Assembly (NCBI GenBank): GCA_023659975.1
Contig: JAGXOI010000002.1
Location: 2,273-43,468, forward strand
DNA from: Candidatus Aenigmarchaeota archaeon LH_S4
GTDB lineage: Archaea; Aenigmatarchaeota; Aenigmatarchaeia; QMZS01
DNA: 41,196 bases
Direction of reading: 5' to 3'
Notes under the pieces: generated by a model
Database searches by the model: none
Seen by the model: the letters and a program-made list of their open reading frames with translations, nothing else
What the model was told of the DNA's origin: nothing
Shown: positions 4,176 through 41,073 of the stretch, in pieces
Layout of the letters: every line of letters starts with the position of its first letter
How positions within the stretch are numbered: position 1 is the first letter of the stretch
Position numbers and translations under genes: made by a program

Positions 4176-4931
4176 TCACTTATTAATTTTCTCAAGTTCC
4201 TTAGTTAATTCTTCTCTGATTTCCTCACTTTTGTCTTCATCAGAGAAATAATCTAGTCTTGAGGCAACCATTATTTTTGCAGAAAGTAGTCTGGCAACTC
4301 TCCCTCGATTTTCTTTTTTTGCCTCCTGAATAAAATTTGATTTGAAAATCATTCCATACTTTGGGATTTTCTGCTTTTCTTCAAGATATTTAAATAAAGA
4401 TTTTTCTGCCCCTATAATCTGGATTTTAGAGGAAGGCATTTTTGATAGGTTTTTCAACCCCCTTGCTTTGGCAATTAGATTTGCAGCAAGGATAGGACCC
4501 AAAAGAGTAGATAAATTTGGTGCAATTTTTTTAACTCCGTCTTTAACCTCATTTTCCAATTTATCTTTTAGTTTCTCTGTATTTCCAATTGTTGGTTTAT
4601 AAATCCCATATTTTGACAGAATTTTTTCCCTATTTCTTAGAACATTTATGTTATAAGTTAATTCATCGAGAGTCCTTGAAGCTAAAATAAGTTTTTCTTC
4701 ATCCTTTCCTCTACTTTTCAATTTCAATTTTGTTAGGGCAATTCCAAATTCATTCATCCACCTCTGGAAGTTTTTATATGGAAATAATTCTTCTAATTCT
4801 TCTTTAAGAACTACTATCTCATTTTCCCTCTCTAAAAATTGCTTTGCTGCTATTTTAGGGTTCTCTGAGAATTTTTGTATTAACTTCCTGCTCTCAAGAA
4901 TTCCAAAAGGAAGTTTTGTTTTTCTAATCAT
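4176..4931 (-). CDS. nop5: Nop5/Nop56-like C/D box RNP protein (start reassigned to MIRKTKLPFG)
   Basis: NOP domain LGPILAANLIAKARGLKNLSKMPSSKIQIIGAEKSLFKYL; the ORF track extends upstream to 4994 but that extension is antisense to a fibrillarin 5' fragment. Confidence 0.93.
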   Translation of the reverse strand: MIRKTKLPFGILESRKLIQKFSENPKIAAKQFLERENEIVVLKEELEELFPYKNFQRWMNEFGIALTKLKLKSRGKDEEKLILASRTLDELTYNINVLRNREKILSKYGIYKPTIGNTEKLKDKLENEVKDGVKKIAPNLSTLLGPILAANLIAKARGLKNLSKMPSSKIQIIGAEKSLFKYLEEKQKIPKYGMIFKSNFIQEAKKENRGRVARLLSAKIMVASRLDYFSDEDKSEEIREELTKELEKINK

Positions 4932-4953
4932 AATTCTATAATGGAGATTTTTA
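4871..4953. repeat. Left copy of an 83-bp direct repeat (5' ends of nop5 and fibrillarin)
   Basis: atttttgtattaacttcctg...ataatggagattttta is identical to 6681-6763. Confidence 0.97.
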
Positions 4954-4979
4954 GAGGGGTTTATAAGAGAGGGGAAAAC
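4941..4979 (+). pseudogene. Fibrillarin 5' fragment (MEIFRGVYKRGEN)
   Basis: atggagatttttagaggggtttataagagaggggaaaac parallels the fibrillarin start MEIFKGVHKKGNG at 6751. Confidence 0.85.
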
Positions 4980-5033
4980 TTTTTTGCTCGTCACTTTCAG
5001 AACTATTTCTAAAGTATAAAGATTAATTTATGG

Positions 5034-6629
5034 CTACTCCTCAAATACGCTCTTTATATCTGGATGCAGGCCCTCTTCAACTTTTTCGATTGCTTTTTGT
5101 CTAATCCTTTTTATCTCTTCGTTTTTCTCATTGAATTCAGATTTGGAGTAGAGCTTCTCCGGGTGTAAGAAAACGTCATCTACGTATCTAACTGCTTTGG
5201 GTACCTTAAAACCGGTTGGTGAATCTATCCATTCTTCAAGACCCCTTCTCAATAAAGAGTCCAGTATAGAAACGGTCTGCTTCAGCTTTATATCTTGGTA
5301 GGAATGACCCTCACCTATACCACCGGTGTTGAGCAGGTAGAACTTGACATTGGGGATTCCCTTCAATATTTCATAAAATCTGTTGGCGTGGTAAGCTCTA
5401 TCACCGGCAACGAATGGGTCGTAGAAAAAAACACTTCTGATCTTACCTGCTTGAGTTGGATCTCCTGCAGAGGATTCCATCGCCTGTCCAACTACCATCA
5501 GAGCAGCAGCCTGTTCCAGAGTCAGTTTAGATATAGCAGGAATAGTCGGTCCTCTGGTTATCAAGATGAGGTTATCTACTCTGTCCACATCGATATGGTC
5601 GCTGGCATGCATGAAGTCTCTTCTCTGTATAACTGCCCTACCGTTGGAGGTCCTCTCAAAATTATAGAGGTCAAAATCCCCTTCTTCTGTTACATAAACG
5701 TTTTCACATAAAGTTTCGGGTTTCATCAGGCCGTAATAGATCTCCATGTGGTCTCTGGGGTTAACACCCTCTGTTTTTACGAATGTCCCCCCTGCCTCAA
5801 AGCCATAAAATGAACCATCAGGATAGAGAGTACCTCCATCATCCTGAATGAGCCATGACTTTTCTCCCTGCTTTCTAGCCAGGATCTTGGAGGTCAGAAT
5901 TGTTTTTCCATTGGCGGAGAGAGCCATCAGCAGAGTTCGAACTTTTCTGTAATCACCATGTACTGACTGAAGATAATCTTCACGGCAGCCACTATGGAGG
6001 AATAAGCCTCCTTTCTTGACTTTGGCTCCCCAATCCTCAGCAGCAAAAACTCCTTTTTTGTATTCTCCTATGTAACTACTATTCCTGACTATTTTGATTA
6101 CCCTACCGTCTTCCAGAATTGCCAGTCTTATTGTAATATCTTTCTCTGGGAGGGGTTTGGATTTATTCTCTTCAAAAGCCTCATCAAAGAAGAAGATCAT
6201 CTGATAATCCGGTTCCTCAATTTTCTGTCTTCTCACATGGAAGAGGTTACCGCCTCCATACGCAAGGTGAGCAAAACTCTGGGGTACAATTAATCTCACA
6301 GTTGTGTCACTATTTTTATTTCCTACGACTCTGTCAATGGCGATAAGATTTTCTTTGCTGAGATAGTCTTCACACTGCTCCAGGAGCTTCGTCTCTTCCT
6401 CTCCAAAAAGGTGATCTTTGCTATTTTTTGTAAATTTAGCCGCTCTAGAAGTTGGGTCGCTTTCCGCCACAAAATTCCTGTGTACTGTCTTGACAACTCC
6501 TGGCTGTTTTTTGACCATAGCTCTTAGCTCTCTTCTGGATGGATTTTCAGCCAATCGGCCTTCTTCCAACGCCTTTTTATATATTCTATCCGCAACATTG
6601 GCGAATTCTTCCAAGTCCAACTCTGACAT
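5034..6629 (-). CDS. pckA: Phosphoenolpyruvate carboxykinase, ATP-type family, divergent
   Basis: FAHLAYGGGNLFHVRR, LSANGKT P-loop-like, WLIQDDGG...FYGFEAGGTFVKTEG, LILITRGPTIPAISKLTLEQAAALMVVG; about 530 aa. Confidence 0.85.
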   Translation of the reverse strand: MSELDLEEFANVADRIYKKALEEGRLAENPSRRELRAMVKKQPGVVKTVHRNFVAESDPTSRAAKFTKNSKDHLFGEEETKLLEQCEDYLSKENLIAIDRVVGNKNSDTTVRLIVPQSFAHLAYGGGNLFHVRRQKIEEPDYQMIFFFDEAFEENKSKPLPEKDITIRLAILEDGRVIKIVRNSSYIGEYKKGVFAAEDWGAKVKKGGLFLHSGCREDYLQSVHGDYRKVRTLLMALSANGKTILTSKILARKQGEKSWLIQDDGGTLYPDGSFYGFEAGGTFVKTEGVNPRDHMEIYYGLMKPETLCENVYVTEEGDFDLYNFERTSNGRAVIQRRDFMHASDHIDVDRVDNLILITRGPTIPAISKLTLEQAAALMVVGQAMESSAGDPTQAGKIRSVFFYDPFVAGDRAYHANRFYEILKGIPNVKFYLLNTGGIGEGHSYQDIKLKQTVSILDSLLRRGLEEWIDSPTGFKVPKAVRYVDDVFLHPEKLYSKSEFNEKNEEIKRIRQKAIEKVEEGLHPDIKSVFEE

Positions 6630-6680
6630 ATTATTATACCCTTTTCAACTTAAACTCAACTGGATTCCACCAAAAACCCA

Positions 6681-6763
6681 ATTTTTGTATTAACTTCCTG
6701 CTCTCAAGAATTCCAAAAGGAAGTTTTGTTTTTCTAATCATAATTCTATAATGGAGATTTTTA
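6681..6763. repeat. Right copy of the 83-bp direct repeat (nop5 5' remnant plus fibrillarin start)
   Basis: Identical to 4871-4953, offset 1810 bp; nop5 homology stops abruptly at 6681. Confidence 0.97.
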
Positions 6764-7347
6764 AAGGAGTTCATAAAAAAGGAAATGGTTTATATACAAA
6801 AGGGAAGAATCTCGAAGAGTGGAATCCCTATAAATCAAAACCTGCAGCAGCGATTTTACTAGGTTTACAGAATTTTCCTGTAAAAAAAGGGCAGAAAATT
6901 TTATATTTAGGTGCTGCTCACGGGACAACACTTTCTCACTTCTCAAATATTGTTGGTGACAAGGGACTTATTTATGGAGTTGAAATCTCTGCTAAAATAA
7001 TTTCAAATTTAGTTGAAAAAGTGAAGAAAAAATCAAATGTTGTTCCCCTACTTGAAGATGCAAGATTTCCAGAAAAATATGGGTGGATTGGAAATGTTGA
7101 CTTAATTTATGAAGACATTGCCCAGAGAGACCAGGTTCAAATCCTGAAAAGAAACAAGATTTTTCTGAAAGAGAGGGGAATTATTGTAATTACCCTAAAA
7201 GCAAAGGCAATAGATTCACTAAAAGAAGTTAAAGAAATTTATAGGGAAGCAATCAAAGAATTGAGTAAAGATTTTGAAATTTTAGAAGTTTTGGATTTAG
7301 AGCCTTATGAGCACGACCATCTTTTTATTGTTGGTAATATGAAATAA
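6751..7347 (+). CDS. flpA: Fibrillarin-like rRNA/tRNA 2'-O-methyltransferase
   Basis: ILYLGAAHGTTLSHFSNIVG, YGVEIS, LIYEDIAQRDQVQI, VITLKAKAID. Confidence 0.97.
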   Translation: MEIFKGVHKKGNGLYTKGKNLEEWNPYKSKPAAAILLGLQNFPVKKGQKILYLGAAHGTTLSHFSNIVGDKGLIYGVEISAKIISNLVEKVKKKSNVVPLLEDARFPEKYGWIGNVDLIYEDIAQRDQVQILKRNKIFLKERGIIVITLKAKAIDSLKEVKEIYREAIKELSKDFEILEVLDLEPYEHDHLFIVGNMK

Positions 7348-11894: not shown

Positions 11895-14819
11895 TCACAT
11901 ACCTTCAACAAAATCTCCTAATGTTCCTTCTACTTTTGACTTAGTTAACTTAGCATATTCTAATATCTCCTCTGTTGATCCCCCTTTATCTCTCATTTCA
12001 TAAAAAGTATTTTCTCCGAGTAAAACATAATTCCAAGTGCAATTCATTCTATCTTCTGCTTTTAGTTCATTGATTTTAGTTATCCAATCAATTGTTGCCA
12101 GCCTTTTTTGTTTTACATTTTGGCTACTTAAATCTTTTTGTGCTTTTGTTTCAACAAGATAAATTTTATTATCAATTCTTACAATAAAATCAGGGTAATA
12201 ACGAGCTAATAAACCATCTTCTCTAATATAAAAAATATGAGCAAAGTCATGATAATTCTCGTTAATTTTGAGAAAGGCTCTAACTTTTGAGTCTGTGTCA
12301 ACAAATTCAATAAAACTCTTTTCAAATCCACCTTTGTGTGAAGGATAAGCCAATTTTTCGTAAATCACTTTTGAGATATCTAAAGAAAAATTTTCCCTCA
12401 TTTTAATCTCTGAAACTTCAGAAAAGAATTTTTTGATCACTTTTGCATCAGTAATTTCTATATTCTTTTGAAGATCATAGATTGTCTGACTTACTTGCTT
12501 AATAATGTGGGTAACTATCTTTGATTTGGATAATAATAAGACTCTCCAGTTATTGTCTTTTAAAGGGTCAAAATCTTGATTAAACAATTTATGTTTTATG
12601 TAATTATCTGTTAGTTTTGCTATTTCTACAGTATTAACTTGCATCATTGGAAAGGTTTTTTTATTCTTTTCACCAACAACCAATGAGGATACTCCATTTA
12701 CTAATCTGGCAATAAATTCGTTATAACTTTTTGCAGTAAAAATATCCGCAGTTACAGAATATTCTCCAAATCTTGTCTTAACTGTTATTTCCTCTGAATA
12801 GAAAGTATCTCCTTCTCTATGAACTAATTTCTTTAAATCTTCTAAAGGGATAGGAAAAGGTGCTAAATTTTCAAAAGATAATTCTTTTGGTGCTAAGTTT
12901 TCTTCTTTGTCTCTAACAATAATTGGCCAGAAAAAATCATAATTTTTGTAATCTTTTCTTAATCCAACTTTTATTATATCTCCTAATATACTTCTTCGGT
13001 CTGTTGGTATTTCGGTTGTTGCTCCGATTGCACCATCTCTTAACAAACTATCGTAGAATTGTATAAAGGCTGGATGCTCAACTATACTTAAAATATCTAG
13101 ATAATTATTTGGCTCTTCTTTCTTTTCAAGCAATTTTATTCTATTTTCTTTTTTAATTTCTTGAAACTCTGGCTCTCGCCACATTATTCTTAATCCTCTT
13201 CCGATTATTTGCTCCAAAAGAATATATGAAGTACTTGAACGCAAAGGAACAATCACACAGATATTATTTACATCAAAACCCTCTCTTAACATTAAAACAG
13301 AAACAATTACTTTTGGTGTTTCATGTTTATCCATATTAAACAACTTCTGCTTTATTTCTATCCATTCTTTCTGTGGAATTTGTCCTTTTTTGTTAGAATC
13401 TATTTGCATAACATCTTCATCAGACAAACCCTCTGATTTTAAGAAAGTTATAATCTGAGGCGTAACTTTTGTATCCTCGCAGATTATTAACATTTTTGGG
13501 TATTTATTTGAAATTCCATTTCTATCTGCTGTTAATGCAACAAATTCTTTTTCCAGTATTTTGAGTTTTTGGAGTCCTGCTCTAATCATAATTTTTTGCC
13601 CTTTTGACAAACCAATGACAGTTTTTCCTTCCCTTTCTGCTTTAAAATCTAAAGGAAGAGCGGCAATATCTTTTCTCTTATCTAAGGCTATTGTCTTAAC
13701 AAACCCTTTTTTTATTGCAGTCACTAAATCAAAATTAACTATAATATGCGGAAAAAAATGTTTTGTTCTTTTCTGGCCAGAACCGCTTACATTAAAAGGG
13801 GTTGCAGAAAAGTCAATTTGAATAAAATTATCTTTTTTTGTTTCTGATATTTTAGTCAGACTTTTCTGCCATTCAACTTCAAAAATTTCTCCTGCTTTTT
13901 TAACTTCATGAATATGATGAGCTTCATCATTGAAAATAACCAAATCTGGCAGGTTTCTCAAATATTCAATTTCTTTTCCTTTTGAATAATTATTATCTAA
14001 TTCATTTAAACTATGTCCTGCTGTTGTTCCCGGTGTGATTGGTAATATCTCTTTTACAACTTTGGAAGGATCATCTAAGGGACTTCCATAATTTTCTTCT
14101 TCTTCAACACCTGCCAAAAGATGCCAATTGGTTATAGCAATTAGCCCTTCTCCAGTAACTTTTTTACCAATCTCTTCTTTTTTAACCACATTTGACTGTA
14201 TAAAACCAAAAACAATATCTCTAAAAGCAGGAGGTATAAATAAATTTTCAAACATTTTAAAATCTGATTTTTCAAAATCTCTTGTTCCGTCTTCCTGTTC
14301 CTTACCTAAAAAAGCATCCCGTAACCTTTCATAAACTATTAATCCTGGTGCAACCAAAAGAAAATTTTTGGAATATCTTCCATTTGGAGTTTCTTCATAT
14401 TTTGCGTTTAGATATTGCCAGATTAAGATAGCATGAAGAACCCATGTTTTTCCTGTTCCTGTCGCCATTTTAACACCATATTTTGAATAATTGTATTTAT
14501 CTTTTTTGAGGTCCAGCATATCTACTTCTGTTAATGATTCTAGATTTGCTGACATATACATATCATAAACATTTTTACATTTTAAAATTTCATGCAGATA
14601 AATTATATTAAGAATTGCTTGTTTCTGTCCTTCATGAAAATTAATATTTCTTGTTTCACAAAAAGAATCAGAAAACCAGAATTTTAATAAATCTTTTGTA
14701 ATCGGAGTTACTTTCTCTAAAAATATGCCTGCTTCCCACTCTTTATTTGCCATCTCTGTAACAATTCTGGCAAATTTTAAAGGAATATTCCTTGTCCCAA
14801 TATTTGTTGGAGTTACCAT
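11895..14819 (-). CDS. res: Type III restriction enzyme, Res subunit (SF2 helicase plus PD-(D/E)xK nuclease)
   Basis: MATGTGKTW Walker A, FNDEAHH, FSATPF, QIIGRGLRIMW; C-terminal PDFIVRIDNKIYLVETKAQ nuclease motif. Confidence 0.92.
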   Translation of the reverse strand: MVTPTNIGTRNIPLKFARIVTEMANKEWEAGIFLEKVTPITKDLLKFWFSDSFCETRNINFHEGQKQAILNIIYLHEILKCKNVYDMYMSANLESLTEVDMLDLKKDKYNYSKYGVKMATGTGKTWVLHAILIWQYLNAKYEETPNGRYSKNFLLVAPGLIVYERLRDAFLGKEQEDGTRDFEKSDFKMFENLFIPPAFRDIVFGFIQSNVVKKEEIGKKVTGEGLIAITNWHLLAGVEEEENYGSPLDDPSKVVKEILPITPGTTAGHSLNELDNNYSKGKEIEYLRNLPDLVIFNDEAHHIHEVKKAGEIFEVEWQKSLTKISETKKDNFIQIDFSATPFNVSGSGQKRTKHFFPHIIVNFDLVTAIKKGFVKTIALDKRKDIAALPLDFKAEREGKTVIGLSKGQKIMIRAGLQKLKILEKEFVALTADRNGISNKYPKMLIICEDTKVTPQIITFLKSEGLSDEDVMQIDSNKKGQIPQKEWIEIKQKLFNMDKHETPKVIVSVLMLREGFDVNNICVIVPLRSSTSYILLEQIIGRGLRIMWREPEFQEIKKENRIKLLEKKEEPNNYLDILSIVEHPAFIQFYDSLLRDGAIGATTEIPTDRRSILGDIIKVGLRKDYKNYDFFWPIIVRDKEENLAPKELSFENLAPFPIPLEDLKKLVHREGDTFYSEEITVKTRFGEYSVTADIFTAKSYNEFIARLVNGVSSLVVGEKNKKTFPMMQVNTVEIAKLTDNYIKHKLFNQDFDPLKDNNWRVLLLSKSKIVTHIIKQVSQTIYDLQKNIEITDAKVIKKFFSEVSEIKMRENFSLDISKVIYEKLAYPSHKGGFEKSFIEFVDTDSKVRAFLKINENYHDFAHIFYIREDGLLARYYPDFIVRIDNKIYLVETKAQKDLSSQNVKQKRLATIDWITKINELKAEDRMNCTWNYVLLGENTFYEMRDKGGSTEEILEYAKLTKSKVEGTLGDFVEGM

Positions 14820-26204: not shown

Positions 26205-27053
26205 TTATTTGGATTCTTCCTTTGCTTTTCTTTCAACGTCTTTTATTACTCCTTCTTCTTTCTCTCCACCGAAATATTCTTCCCAGATCTGTTTCTCTTC
26301 TTCTGGCAATTTCTGCCAATTTAGGTTTGAATCTTTTACTTTTTCCCAGGCTTCCTTTGCTCTTTCATGAGTGTATGAACCTGGACCACCAATTTTGCCT
26401 TTCTTTACTTCTGTTTCAAGGTCTTTTCTTACTTCTTCTTTTTTCTCTCTACCGAAATATTCTTCAAGGTATCTTTTCTCTTCTTCTGGCAATTCCTTCA
26501 AATCCCCTGAATCTCTTGCTTTTTCCCAGGCTCCCTTTGCCATTTCATAAGTTTCTGAACCTGGACCAGCAATTCTATCTCTGTCGTGGTACATTGAAGC
26601 TTTTACTCTATTATATAACTCATCCATATTCCCTATCCTTCTCTCAATTTCATTATAAAAACTATGATTACTAAAGTCTGTCTCCTCTCTATTCTCTATT
26701 CCTCTCACCACAGCCCAAGCAGAATAATATGCTTTTGGGTCCTCCTTCAATCTTTCAGTGATAAGATCTCGGTCTTTCTTTGGAAGTGCTGCTACACCTT
26801 CAGCTATTTTATACTCCATACTGATAATATCATCCTTTACTTTTCTAGATACCTCTTTATCACGTATATTTCCTGTTATCTTTGCTATCTCATAACGAGC
26901 ATCCTGTAATCCTTGAATCATTAAATATGCTTCTTCTCCCTTTTCTGATAACTTCGGTGGTTTTGTTGCCTTTGCAAAAGAATCCATTACGTCTTGGTAT
27001 GCTTCACTTTTTGGATCTTCTCCCATATATTTATTTCCTATCATTTTCACCAC
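26205..27053 (-). CDS. Charged protein with C-terminal internal repeats, unknown function
   Basis: 282 aa; IAGPGSETYEMAKGAWEKARDS..LKELPEEEKRYLEEYFGREKKE and IGGPGSYTHERAKEAWEKVKDS..WQKLPEEEKQIWEEYFGGEKEE. Confidence 0.75.
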   Translation of the reverse strand: MVKMIGNKYMGEDPKSEAYQDVMDSFAKATKPPKLSEKGEEAYLMIQGLQDARYEIAKITGNIRDKEVSRKVKDDIISMEYKIAEGVAALPKKDRDLITERLKEDPKAYYSAWAVVRGIENREETDFSNHSFYNEIERRIGNMDELYNRVKASMYHDRDRIAGPGSETYEMAKGAWEKARDSGDLKELPEEEKRYLEEYFGREKKEEVRKDLETEVKKGKIGGPGSYTHERAKEAWEKVKDSNLNWQKLPEEEKQIWEEYFGGEKEEGVIKDVERKAKEESK

Positions 27054-36151: not shown

Positions 36152-36203
36152 AATAACATGAAACTATTTTAGATAATTTGTTTATTTTAAACTATAATAA
36201 AAT

Positions 36204-36423
36204 TTTTGCACTTTTAATATAAACCTTCCATAGCGGTTTTAACCACTTCCCCAATATTCCCAATTTTCTCATACAATTCAATACTCCACTCAACAAACTT
36301 TCCAACTTCCTTTTACTGCTCTGACAAAGTGATTAAAACAAGGTTTGTTAAAGAGAGTTCTGAATTTTGACAAAAATTATTGATATATTTGCTAAATATC
36401 CTTAAAAACTAAAAAGTGCAAAA
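36204..36423. mobile_element. MITE-like element, copy 1
   Basis: 220 bp; termini TTTTGCACTTTT / AAAAGTGCAAAA; about 98% identical to 40853-41073. Confidence 0.85.
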
Positions 36424-36466: not shown

Positions 36467-36907
36467 GTGGGGAAAATCTTAATAGCTGGTTTAGGAGATA
36501 AATTGCGGGGTGATGATGGTCTTGGCCCTTTAGTAATAGAAAAACTCAAAAATGAGAAATTACCTGAAAATGTTGAAGTGGAAGATTTTGGTTCAGGAGT
36601 CTTTGCTCTTCTAAACAAAATAGAGCAATATGAAAAAATCATTGTTGTGGATGCTATCAAAAGAGAAGGTAACCCAGGAGAAGTATATAACTTTGAATTA
36701 TCTGATTTAAAAAAAGGAAAACTCACAAATATCCATGAGACTAAAATAGATAAGATAGTTCTCGTGGCTAAAGAGCTGGGTGTTGAGACAAAAATATTAA
36801 TTGTGGGTTGCGAACCAAAATCAATGGAATATGAAGTTGGTCTATCAAAAGAAGTGGAAAAAGCGATTCCTGAAATAATAGATTTGATTGTTGCTTCTAT
36901 TAACTGA
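36467..36907 (+). CDS. Hydrogenase maturation protease (HycI/HyaD family), GTG start
   Basis: ILIAGLGDKLRGDDGLGPLVIEKL, VVDAIKREGNPG, VGCEPKSMEYEVGLS. Confidence 0.93.
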   Translation: MGKILIAGLGDKLRGDDGLGPLVIEKLKNEKLPENVEVEDFGSGVFALLNKIEQYEKIIVVDAIKREGNPGEVYNFELSDLKKGKLTNIHETKIDKIVLVAKELGVETKILIVGCEPKSMEYEVGLSKEVEKAIPEIIDLIVASIN

Positions 36908-36926
36908 TAAAAAATTTTATTTAATT

Positions 36927-37100
36927 ATGATAGAAATTTCAAGAAAAGATAATGTTTCCTTTTCTGATATAGCACCTTCAAAATTTTGGAGGGCTGGAGG
37001 AGGTAAACTCCTTGATTATTTTAACAATGTCTCAAGAATGTTAAAAAACCCTAAAAAAGTATATGTAGATGAACTAATTGGTTTCCATAGTGGGATTTAA
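36927..37100 (+). CDS. Small protein of unknown function within the hydrogenase operon
   Basis: About 57 aa from MIEISRKDNVSFSDIAPSKFWRAGGG. Confidence 0.45.
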   Translation: MIEISRKDNVSFSDIAPSKFWRAGGGKLLDYFNNVSRMLKNPKKVYVDELIGFHSGI

Positions 37101-37124
37101 TAAAGAGTAATGTGTAATTAAATA

Positions 37125-38093
37125 ATGTATTATGTTCTAAAGAAAAAAGATCTCCCAAAATTCGTGAAACTGTTAAACAAAGATTTTGAGGTAATAGCTC
37201 CCGTAAAAAAGAATGGCTCTCTTATTTTTGATAAAGTAAGTTCCGCGGATGAAATCGTGAAGAATTATATAAACACTGATTACCCTCCAAAGAATCTTTT
37301 CCTCCCTGATGGAGAAACAATATTTGAATACAAGAAATCCAATAATATAAAAATAAAGCATCCTGGAAAGCCAAAGAAAAGAGTGATATATAGAATTAGA
37401 CCTTGTGATGTAAATGCTCTGTTGAAATTGGATAAAATATTGGGTGGAGGATTCTATTACAGAACAAAAAGGGAAAACACGAAAATCATAGCAATTAACT
37501 GCACCAAAGCTGGGGAAAATTGTTTCTGCACAAGTTTAGGGGATGACCAGTTAAAGGAAGGTTTTGATTTGTTATTAACAGATGTTGGAAAAGAATTTTA
37601 CATAAAGATTGGGAGTGAGTGGGGCAAAAAATTGATGAAACACAAAATCTTCAAGAGAGCGGAAAACTCGTTCAAGAAAACTTTTTTTGAATGCAAGAGA
37701 TTTTTCTTAGCAAAAGATTTAGACAAAAAAATAGAAAGAAATTTCAACACAAAGATCTGGGAAAAGCACTTCAAGAAATGTTTTTCCTGCACTGCTTGTT
37801 CAGTAGTCTGCCCTATGTGCTATTGTTTTGATTTAGTACAAGTTCCAAAATCTGAAAATGAAGGTAAAGTAAAAAAATTCTGGAGTTCCTGCTTGTTAAA
37901 AGAATTTTCAAGAGTTGCAGGAGATTTTATTTTCAGAGATAAAAGAGTTAATAGGGTGAGGCAATTCCTAAGTCACAAATTCTTATATGGAAAAAAACAT
38001 TATGATGAATTCTTGTGTGTTGGTTGCGGTCGTTGCATATCACATTGTCCTGTAGGAATTGACTACGAAAAGTTTTTAGAGGAAATAAAATGA
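37125..38093 (+). CDS. hydB: Cytosolic [NiFe]-hydrogenase beta subunit (iron-sulfur, sulfhydrogenase HydB-like)
   Basis: RPCDVNALLKLDKIL; ferredoxin-like CFSCTACSVVCPMCYC and CVGCGRCISHCPVGID. Confidence 0.9.
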   Translation: MYYVLKKKDLPKFVKLLNKDFEVIAPVKKNGSLIFDKVSSADEIVKNYINTDYPPKNLFLPDGETIFEYKKSNNIKIKHPGKPKKRVIYRIRPCDVNALLKLDKILGGGFYYRTKRENTKIIAINCTKAGENCFCTSLGDDQLKEGFDLLLTDVGKEFYIKIGSEWGKKLMKHKIFKRAENSFKKTFFECKRFFLAKDLDKKIERNFNTKIWEKHFKKCFSCTACSVVCPMCYCFDLVQVPKSENEGKVKKFWSSCLLKEFSRVAGDFIFRDKRVNRVRQFLSHKFLYGKKHYDEFLCVGCGRCISHCPVGIDYEKFLEEIK

Positions 38094-38914
38094 AAATATA
38101 TACACCAGATATTGGGAAAATTAAAAAAACAATAAAAGAGACAGAGGACACGAAAACTTTTCAAATAGAACTAGAAAACAAAATTTTAAGAGAACATTTC
38201 TATTTTAACCCAGGTGAATTTGTCTTAATCACAGTTTTCGGTGTTGGGGAAGCACCATTCTCGATCTCTTCCTCCCCTTTCAACAAAAATTATTTTGAGA
38301 TAACTGCAAGAAAAACAGGTAATGTAACAAATGCTCTTTTCAATCTTAAAGAAGGGAATAAAATAGGTGTTAGAGGACCTCATGGTAAAGGATATCCAAT
38401 GGATGAGTTTGAACACACAAATATTATACTTATTAGTGGGGGTTGTGGACTTGCCCCTCTGAAATCACTAATCGAATATGTAATACAAAAGAGAGGTTAT
38501 TATAACAAACTAACCTTGCTTTATGGAGCCAAAACACCTCAAAATATTATTTACGAAAAAGAAATTTCAAAATGGAAAAAGATCAAGAATTTTGATGTTC
38601 ATTTAACTGTGGACAAAGGTAATAAGAAATGGAAAGGTAACTTAGGAGTGGTCACAAAACTAATAAACAAGGTTAAGAATTTTGAAAACTCTGTGGTTTG
38701 TCTTTGTGGACCTCCTGTAATGATGAAGTACTCAATTCCAGAATTAAAGAAAAAAGGAGTTGAGGATGAGGATATTTTTGTTTCCCTGGAGAGAAAAATG
38801 CAATGCGGTTTAAAAATTTGCTGTCATTGCAATATTAATGATGTTTATGTTTGTAAGGATGGTCCTGTGTTTCGTTATTTGGACATTAAAGATTTGAGTG
38901 AATTAGGATGGTAA
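38090..38914 (+). CDS. hydG: Hydrogenase gamma subunit (FAD/NAD(P)-binding oxidoreductase, HydG-like)
   Basis: PFSISSSP, LISGGCGLAPLKSLIEYV, LLYGAKTPQNIIY, CGPPVMMKY, ERKMQCGLKICCHCNI. Confidence 0.92.
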   Translation: MKIYTPDIGKIKKTIKETEDTKTFQIELENKILREHFYFNPGEFVLITVFGVGEAPFSISSSPFNKNYFEITARKTGNVTNALFNLKEGNKIGVRGPHGKGYPMDEFEHTNIILISGGCGLAPLKSLIEYVIQKRGYYNKLTLLYGAKTPQNIIYEKEISKWKKIKNFDVHLTVDKGNKKWKGNLGVVTKLINKVKNFENSVVCLCGPPVMMKYSIPELKKKGVEDEDIFVSLERKMQCGLKICCHCNINDVYVCKDGPVFRYLDIKDLSELGW

Positions 38915-39615
38915 AGAAAAAAGTTGGTGTGTTTAAATTCACATGTTGTTCCGGATGTCAAGTGGAGATTCTAAACCAAGCTGAGAGATTTTTGGAACTA
39001 AGGAAAAAACTTGATTTCAAATACATGAAAATCTTAAAGAAAGGGAAAATTCAAAAATTTGATATAGGGTTTATTAAAGGTGCAATTTCTTCAAAGGAAG
39101 AAGTTGAATTAGCAAAAGAAATCAGAGAAAAAACTGATTACTTGATTGCATTGGGCAGCTGCGCAGTTCTTGGAGGAATTTCTGCAATGCAAAACTTTGT
39201 TTCTGCTAAGAACAAAAGAAAAACAAATTACACACCTAAAGACAAATCAGTTCCAGTTGAAAAATATGTTAAGGTTGAGTACAGATTAAGAGGTTGCCCT
39301 ATTACTGGTTCCGAATTTTTACAAATGATAAATGATCTTTTAGCAGGAAAAACACTAAGGGATCTGGAAACACCTGTTTGCAACGAGTGCAGGAAAAACA
39401 ATAATGAATGTTTGATAGAAAAAGGTGAATTTTGTGCAGGTCCAATAACATATGCAGGTTGCAAAGCAATCTGCCCAGAAAACAATACTTCTTGCATAGG
39501 TTGTAGAGGGATAACAAAAGATGCGAATTTAAAGGAGTGGAAGAAGAAAATGAAAGAAAAGGGATTTGAGGAAAAGAGTAAAGAAGTTTTGAGAATATTT
39601 AATCATGAGCCATGA
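38908..39615 (+). CDS. hydD: [NiFe]-hydrogenase small (delta) subunit
   Basis: FTCCSGCQVEIL, ALGSCAVLGGISAMQN, RGCPITGSEFL, Cys-rich C-terminus. Confidence 0.93.
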   Translation: MVKKKVGVFKFTCCSGCQVEILNQAERFLELRKKLDFKYMKILKKGKIQKFDIGFIKGAISSKEEVELAKEIREKTDYLIALGSCAVLGGISAMQNFVSAKNKRKTNYTPKDKSVPVEKYVKVEYRLRGCPITGSEFLQMINDLLAGKTLRDLETPVCNECRKNNNECLIEKGEFCAGPITYAGCKAICPENNTSCIGCRGITKDANLKEWKKKMKEKGFEEKSKEVLRIFNHEP

Positions 39616-40849
39616 AATGACTAGAGTGGGAGGTAATGCAACAATTATTTTAGAGAAAGATGGAAAAAAATTAATTCCTAAAGTTAATATATATGAATCC
39701 TCAAGAAAATTTGAAAAAATCCTAATCGGAAAAAAAGTAGAGGAAATACCTGATTTAGTGAGCAGAATCTGTGGTATTTGCCATGTACCTCACAAATTAG
39801 GAGGAATAATGGCTATTGAGGATGCTCTGAATGTAAAAGTAGGGAAAGAGATAGAGATGTTGAGAGAACTCCTAAACTTAGGTTCCTTAATGAACAGCCA
39901 CGTGTTGCACTTGTTCTTCATGGTTCTTCCAGATATAAAAGAACATGATAATATATTTGAAATGACAAATAACTATAAAAATCTCATCAATAAAGGACTA
40001 AAATTAGAAAAAGTAAGTGAGGAAATTGTTAAAGTTGTTGGTGGTAGGGAGGTACATACATTAACCCCTAAAATTGGTGGTTTCACTAAATTCCCTGGAA
40101 GAAAGGATCTGAACACACTTCTAAAAAATTTAAAAGAAGCAAGAAAAGATGCTTTGGAAGCAATTAAAGTTTTTTCAGAAAACAAAAAGGACTTGAAGTT
40201 CAAAAAGAAAACCAGGCACATCTCCTTGAAAGGAAATAAAAATTATGAAGTTCTTAAGGGAGACTTAATCGCAGATGGTTTTGACTTTTCCGCAAAAGAG
40301 TATGGAAAATTCCTAAAGGAATACGAAGTTGATTATTCCACAGCAAAATTCTCTGAATTCAACAACAAAAGTTATATGGTGGGCGCTCTCTCTAGGTTGA
40401 TTAATAATGGAGATAACTTGCCAGCAAAAATAAAAAAATATTTGAAAAATTTGGAATTAAACTCACCATTCTCCAACAATCTTGCACAAACAATTGAAGT
40501 TTATTATTGCATTGAAAGAGCTATAGAGATTATTGAAAATTTGAAATTGAGGGAAAAGAATGTTGATTTTAAGTATAAAGAAAGTGAAGGAATAAGCGTA
40601 ACTGAAGCTCCAAGAGGGATTCTAGTTCACCATTACAAAATTGGAAAAAATGGAAAAGTGAAATATGCTAACATAATCACACCAACTGCTCAAAATCTGA
40701 AAAGTATGGAGGATTCTGCAACAGAGTTCATACCTTCTGTGCCTAAAAAAGATCTAGAACATTTCCTTGAAAGATTGATTAGGGCTTATGATCCATGCAC
40801 CCCCTGCTCAACTCATTTCCTTGATGTAAGATACAATGATTATTTATAA
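39605..40849 (+). CDS. hydA: [NiFe]-hydrogenase large (alpha) subunit, group 3b-like
   Basis: L1 RICGICHVPHK and L2 DPCTPCSTH with cleavable C-terminal tail FLDVRYNDYL. Confidence 0.94.
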   Translation: MSHEMTRVGGNATIILEKDGKKLIPKVNIYESSRKFEKILIGKKVEEIPDLVSRICGICHVPHKLGGIMAIEDALNVKVGKEIEMLRELLNLGSLMNSHVLHLFFMVLPDIKEHDNIFEMTNNYKNLINKGLKLEKVSEEIVKVVGGREVHTLTPKIGGFTKFPGRKDLNTLLKNLKEARKDALEAIKVFSENKKDLKFKKKTRHISLKGNKNYEVLKGDLIADGFDFSAKEYGKFLKEYEVDYSTAKFSEFNNKSYMVGALSRLINNGDNLPAKIKKYLKNLELNSPFSNNLAQTIEVYYCIERAIEIIENLKLREKNVDFKYKESEGISVTEAPRGILVHHYKIGKNGKVKYANIITPTAQNLKSMEDSATEFIPSVPKKDLEHFLERLIRAYDPCTPCSTHFLDVRYNDYL

Positions 40850-40852
40850 AGG

Positions 40853-41073
40853 TTTTGCACTTTTAATATAAACCTTCCATAGCGGTTTTAACCACTTCCC
40901 TAATATTCCCAATTTTCTCATACAATTCAATATTCCACTCAACAAACTTTCCAACTTCCTTTTACTGCTCTGACAAAGTGATTAAAACAAGGTTTGTTAA
41001 AGAGAGTTCTGAATTTTGACAAAAATTATTGATATATTTGTTAAATATCCTTAAAAAACTAAAAAGTGCAAAA
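40853..41073. mobile_element. MITE-like element, copy 2, same orientation as copy 1
   Basis: 221 bp; 3 substitutions and 1 single-base indel relative to copy 1. Confidence 0.85.

Follow-up and report, generated by a model that had tools for sequence, protein, structure and literature searches.

A pckA gene between nop5 and flpA in an Aenigmarchaeota genome, bracketed by direct copies of both gene starts

Insertion with long target duplication has been described for R-M systems, according to PMC3031569, which cites Nobusato et al. 2000. In homology-facilitated illegitimate recombination, imports are anchored by short or diverged homology (PMC6382021). The locus described here lies in a 41,196-nucleotide stretch of DNA (the window) from Candidatus Aenigmarchaeota archaeon LH_S4 (G000), in which a gene for PEP carboxykinase (PEPCK), pckA, stands between nop5 and the fibrillarin gene flpA, two RNA-modification genes that are read divergently. 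The comparison included the sister genome, Candidatus Aenigmarchaeota archaeon LH_S6 (G008; JAGXOK010000004.1), G002, G003 and G005 of the same genus as G000, and G010 of another genus; all genomes compared are draft MAGs, and G000 is 72% complete. The locus resembles long target duplication in that long direct copies of host DNA enclose a foreign gene, no recombinase is present, the site is empty in relatives, and in the sister genome this site also carries an R-M operon. It differs in its metabolic cargo, in copies that are diverged in G008 and homogenised in G000, and in flanks that form a mosaic of two lineages. With homologous or homeologous island exchange (PMC6382021) it shares a cargo apparently brought in on flanks of a related lineage, short homology where the tract ends (16 bp, on the left) and mosaic neighbouring genes; however, flank fragments are doubled around the cargo and the resident flanks were not simply replaced. 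As in gene conversion between direct repeats, a sharp-edged local perfect identity could be observed although the G008 copies are diverged, whereas here the tract spans two gene starts and alters the FlpA N-terminus. The case is best called a variant combining features of known kinds, of interest as local evolution and not as a new kind of element. Its features, in window coordinates, are as follows.

4176..4931, minus strand: nop5, a short Nop5/Nop56-58 homologue of 251 aa (PF01798, E 1.3e-41); codons 1 to ~42 are G010-like and the rest G002/G003-like.
4870..4953: left one of the two exactly matching 84-bp direct repeat copies, made up of nop5 codons 21-1, 9 bp of intergenic DNA and ATGGAGATTTTTA.
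4941..5011, plus strand: flpA-prime remnant, ORF MEIFRGVYKRGENFFARHFQNYF*, a non-functional start fragment that holds a TATA-like box.
5013..5016: junction at which, in G008, an additional AT-rich segment of ~373 bp separates the flpA-prime remnant from the pckA 3' end.
5034..6629, minus strand: pckA, predicted divergent ATP-type PEP carboxykinase of 531 aa, acquired horizontally.
6630..6679: DNA upstream of pckA; as far as the repeat boundary it is shared with G008, at 96% identity over 52 bp.
6680..6763: right repeat copy; its G008 counterpart is a nop5 remnant of 77-78% identity, followed by the R-M operon.
6751..7347, plus strand: flpA, encoding a fibrillarin of 198 aa whose MEIFK start is derived (PF01269, E 2.7e-63).

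The exact direct repeat bracketing pckA (4870-4953 = 6680-6763) confirmed the identical blocks reported in the first-pass annotation and was found to be one base longer (84 bp, noted as 83 bp); over 103 bp the two copies are 95% identical. Each copy consists of the first 21 nop5 codons on the minus strand and, across the 9-bp gap, the beginning of the flpA frame, ATGGAGATTTTTA, and the earlier description of its content as nop5 start, intergenic DNA and flpA start was therefore accurate. The longest exact repeat in third-order Markov simulations of the window sequence was 19 bp, and thus the 84-bp repeat is real at the sequence level. The left copy is ~98.8% identical to the left copy of G008, and G010, which lacks pckA, holds one copy of the block with 89% identity to the left copy over 82 bp.

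A profile search of the pckA product revealed a match to PEPCK_ATP (PF01293; E 2e-39, 136 bits against a cutoff of 26.5), while the NCBIfam subfamily NF006821 scored 351 bits, slightly under its cutoff of 369. PDB matches were weak (best E 1.7e-12). In the alignment with 1ygg, EYKKG, LH, SANGKT, QDDGG and NGR were in register, and these contain K-K-G, H, the P-loop S-x-x-G-K-T, D-D and R, which we take to be the nucleotide- and metal-binding residues of ATP-type PEPCK. On sequence evidence, the product is a divergent ATP-type PEPCK in which the nucleotide- and metal-binding motifs are kept. The gene has a G+C content of 43.0% and a GC3 of 42.3%, against a GC3 of 19-33% in the other window genes measured, and its codon-usage distance is the largest among the window genes measured; the G+C richness relative to its neighbours, first seen by eye, is supported. 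Among 11 family genomes, pckA could be detected in two, G000 and G008, whose products are 96% identical at the amino acid level. Four further matches, 29-37% identical, were obtained from 160 genomes of the phylum, and the nearest relative found outside G008 was 62% identical and belonged to an uncultured bacterial MAG (L047). A viral-contig scan revealed no pckA, and plasmid relatives were below 33% identical among the matches listed. The presence of pckA in two of the 11 family genomes, with relatives of 29-37% elsewhere in the phylum, supports horizontal acquisition of the gene.

The nop5-flpA gap measures 12 bp in G002 and G003, ~38 bp in G005 and ~74 bp in G010, and none of these gaps contains pckA. 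Since nop5 and flpA are adjacent without pckA in these genomes, an insertion has occurred, and this empty-site comparison supports the divergent nop5-flpA arrangement that had been proposed as ancestral. In G006 and G009, nop5 and flpA are on separate contigs. The gap in G001 and G004 is occupied by ORFs of 191 and 182 aa (L038:8119-8694 and L037:7799-8347), for which no Pfam match could be found. A transposon or an integrase could be considered as the vehicle, as one discrete cargo gene is accompanied by direct repeats; however, 84 bp is far above the usual target duplication length, and the repeat is made of host gene starts. No transposase, integrase or terminal inverted repeats were found in 4870-6763. 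Simple transposition of pckA, already doubted in the first-pass annotation, was rejected on the lack of a recombinase and of inverted ends, and transposon- or integrase-mediated insertion in general is regarded as hardly credible.

The gene order in G008 is nop5, flpA-prime remnant, ~373 bp, pckA, nop5-start remnant, R-M operon and flpA. The left junction of the insert is the same as in G000, and the identical site of pckA in both genomes indicates that it arrived before they split. The ~373-bp segment, present only in G008, had no other match in 21 genomes. The R-M operon (L032:4625-9159), of ResIII-type restriction, encodes a res-like protein of 872 aa and a DNA methylase of 639 aa; a ResIII-like gene in the window itself (11895-14819) is a different one, 32% similar to that of G008. 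An artefact, in which strain variants were chimerically joined during assembly, would be conceivable for a draft MAG with an 84-bp repeat, a length within the k-mer range of some assemblers. However, a contig of the separate genome G008 also contains pckA together with the left junction and the boundary of the insert on the right, and a false join of the right copy from G008-like sequence would need overlaps of just 16 bp and a few bp, which makes an artefact very improbable.

The right nop5-start copy in G008 is 77-78% identical to the left copy. The right-hand sequence of G000 agrees with that of G008 over 42 bp to the left of the repeat and the first 16 bp inside it, changes over to the left-copy sequence, and from 6766 the flpA DNA is identical to G008 for 125 bp; this succession is expected of a conversion tract. 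The FlpA start of G008, MEQIFPGV, is of the family type (MKQIFSGV, MAEQIFPGV, MEQILPGI, MKPIFPGV), and the DNA upstream of this flpA start is also present in G010. In G000, FlpA begins with MEIFKGV; the first codons are those of the left remnant (MEIFRGV), and this start is probably a hybrid. As the G008 right copy is 77-78% identical, is followed by a different flpA start and is separated from it by the R-M operon, the 84-bp identity is probably secondary, and the perfect repeat most likely arose afterwards in G000 as a gene-conversion or crossover tract. Its reading as a plain insertion footprint was not sustained, because G008, with the same insertion, has a diverged right copy. The statement that the start codons remained intact holds in that each gene keeps one, but the MEIFK start of G000 differs from MEQIFP, the family type seen in G008. 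It does not follow from a perfect repeat around an insert that the repeat dates from the insertion, and a sister genome can reveal a probable later gene conversion. Conversely, G008 could have gained a new right side from a relative, comprising the nop5 remnant, the R-M operon and the flpA start, with G000 nearer to the original; at a G000-G008 divergence of ~4%, zero changes in 84 bp since the split would not be very improbable.

Analysis of the neighbouring genes revealed mosaic flanks. Within the first ~105-135 nt of nop5 in G000/G008, sites favoured G010 over G003 by 18:4, with a break at 105 or 114, whereas the remaining sites were divided 53:147 (Fisher p ~5e-7 for the contrast, a value somewhat optimistic because the breakpoint was picked from the data). 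A tree of the larger nop5 part placed G000/G008 as sister to G002/G003 with a support of 0.936; the tree of the short part placed them outside the G002/G003 group with weak support. In flpA, nt ~180-390 (window ~6931-7140) are G010-like, with 84-97% identity over ~200 bp, and windows 240-360 are 95-97% identical to G010 versus 72-80% to G003; the two ends of the gene are G003-like. A fragment of the 414-aa hydrogenase subunit is 96% identical between G000 and G010, which are otherwise distant. Given the nop5 and flpA mosaics, together with this 96% fragment despite an overall nop5 identity of 61% between the two genomes, exchange with a G010-like lineage appears likely, also beyond the nop5-flpA site. 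The earlier suggestion that pckA arrived with DNA of a related lineage is plausible from the mosaic flanks, although on evidence that differs from the one originally given.

If the locus had instead arisen by insertion with long target duplication, a target of ~84 bp would have been duplicated once, G000 would show the original footprint, and the right side in G008 would have been replaced when the R-M operon came in from a relative along with nop5/flpA flanks of its own. The coincidence of insert and repeat boundaries, the direct repeat at both insert ends (84 bp exact in G000, the 77-78% nop5-start copy in G008), the single 89% block without pckA in G010, and the R-M operon in G008, the usual cargo of such insertions (PMC3031569), would agree with this account. 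However, a single duplication does not give flpA parts that differ strongly past the repeat beside nop5 parts that are identical. The diverged right copy of G008 speaks against the simple case, as do the family-type flpA start in G008 but not in G000 and the nop5 5' end introgressed in both genomes alike. We consider such a duplication possible but unlikely.

Fairly probable, in our judgement, is the entry of pckA into the common ancestor by homologous or homeologous recombination, with later left-to-right copying in the G000 lineage. The order of these events is inferred from the two occupied sites. Without transposition, pckA and flanking DNA would have entered the nop5-flpA gap of the G000/G008 ancestor on a circular or linear molecule that bore short pieces of the nop5 and flpA starts, so that copies of both starts would come to lie on each side of pckA. 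Both essential genes would retain their body, a start codon and the DNA close upstream. In the G000 lineage, a short gene-conversion or crossover tract would subsequently have overwritten the right junction with the left one, giving the 84 identical bp, changing the first flpA codons from MEQIFP to MEIFK and removing the R-M operon, if this was already present. At this locus, the gain of a foreign metabolic gene beside two housekeeping genes by a small-genome DPANN archaeon can be traced through sites that are empty, occupied and doubly occupied. A wider reading, in which the gap between nop5 and flpA serves this archaeal family as a recurrent docking site for pckA, the R-M operon and other ORFs, is rather doubtful. 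If true, cargo would move between related lineages bounded by gene-start pieces, homologous recombination would dock it without a dedicated recombinase, recombination between the repeats would let it leave with both essential genes restored, and the interlocked divergent starts would select for long duplications that preserve each promoter.

Beyond ATGGAGATTTTT, the left copy reads RGVYKRGENFFAR, to which the FlpA starts of G002, G003 and G006 are nearest. The stretch RGVYKRGEN scored 35 (BLOSUM) against FlpA of G002/G003; scores of at least 33 were reached by 12 9-mers in a background of 617,641, and the majority of the 12 were copies of the RGVYKRGEN stretch itself. The previously noted continuation of the left copy into a diverged flpA start was thereby borne out. 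A coincidental likeness was also considered, as the G010 intergenic region has ATGGAGATTTTT, and was rejected for the part beyond ATGGAGATTTTT, where RGVYKRGEN lies far above background. The frame of the flpA-prime ORF is broken by 1 nt in G008, and no donor genome with the flpA-prime sequence (an FlpA beginning MEIFRGVYKRGENFFAR) was found. A TATA-like TTATAAA on the minus strand lies inside the flpA-prime remnant, 35 nt upstream of the nop5 ATG, and the same motif occurs in G002/G003 at -41, within flpA. Across 124 upstream regions, a TATA-like peak was observed at -25 to -21, unlike these -35/-41 positions. Because the divergent genes are only 9-12 bp apart, promoter elements may sit in the coding start of the neighbour, a suggestive reading only, which would explain the survival solely of insertions that duplicate both starts.

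Other repeats could be observed in the window. A 219-224 bp MITE-like repeat with TTTTGCACTTTT-type inverted ends (36197-36420 and 40846-41070) flanks a [NiFe]-hydrogenase-like operon (36467-40849); its full or partial matches number 9 in G000 and 4 in G008. It was rejected as an instance of the same phenomenon as the pckA repeat because of its TTTTGCACTTTT inverted ends and its multiple copies, as shown by the 9 matches in the genome. Past its second copy, a CCCCTCCCTAAAGGAAGGGG hairpin at the contig end (41080-41196) recalls IS200/IS605-type ends. Positions 2-91 contain three copies of a 30-bp tandem repeat, GAGGAAGAAGGTAAGCCTGAAGAAGAGAGA, and 26216-26574 contains paired imperfect repeats with ~180-183 bp spacing, which are probably repeat units of a coding region.
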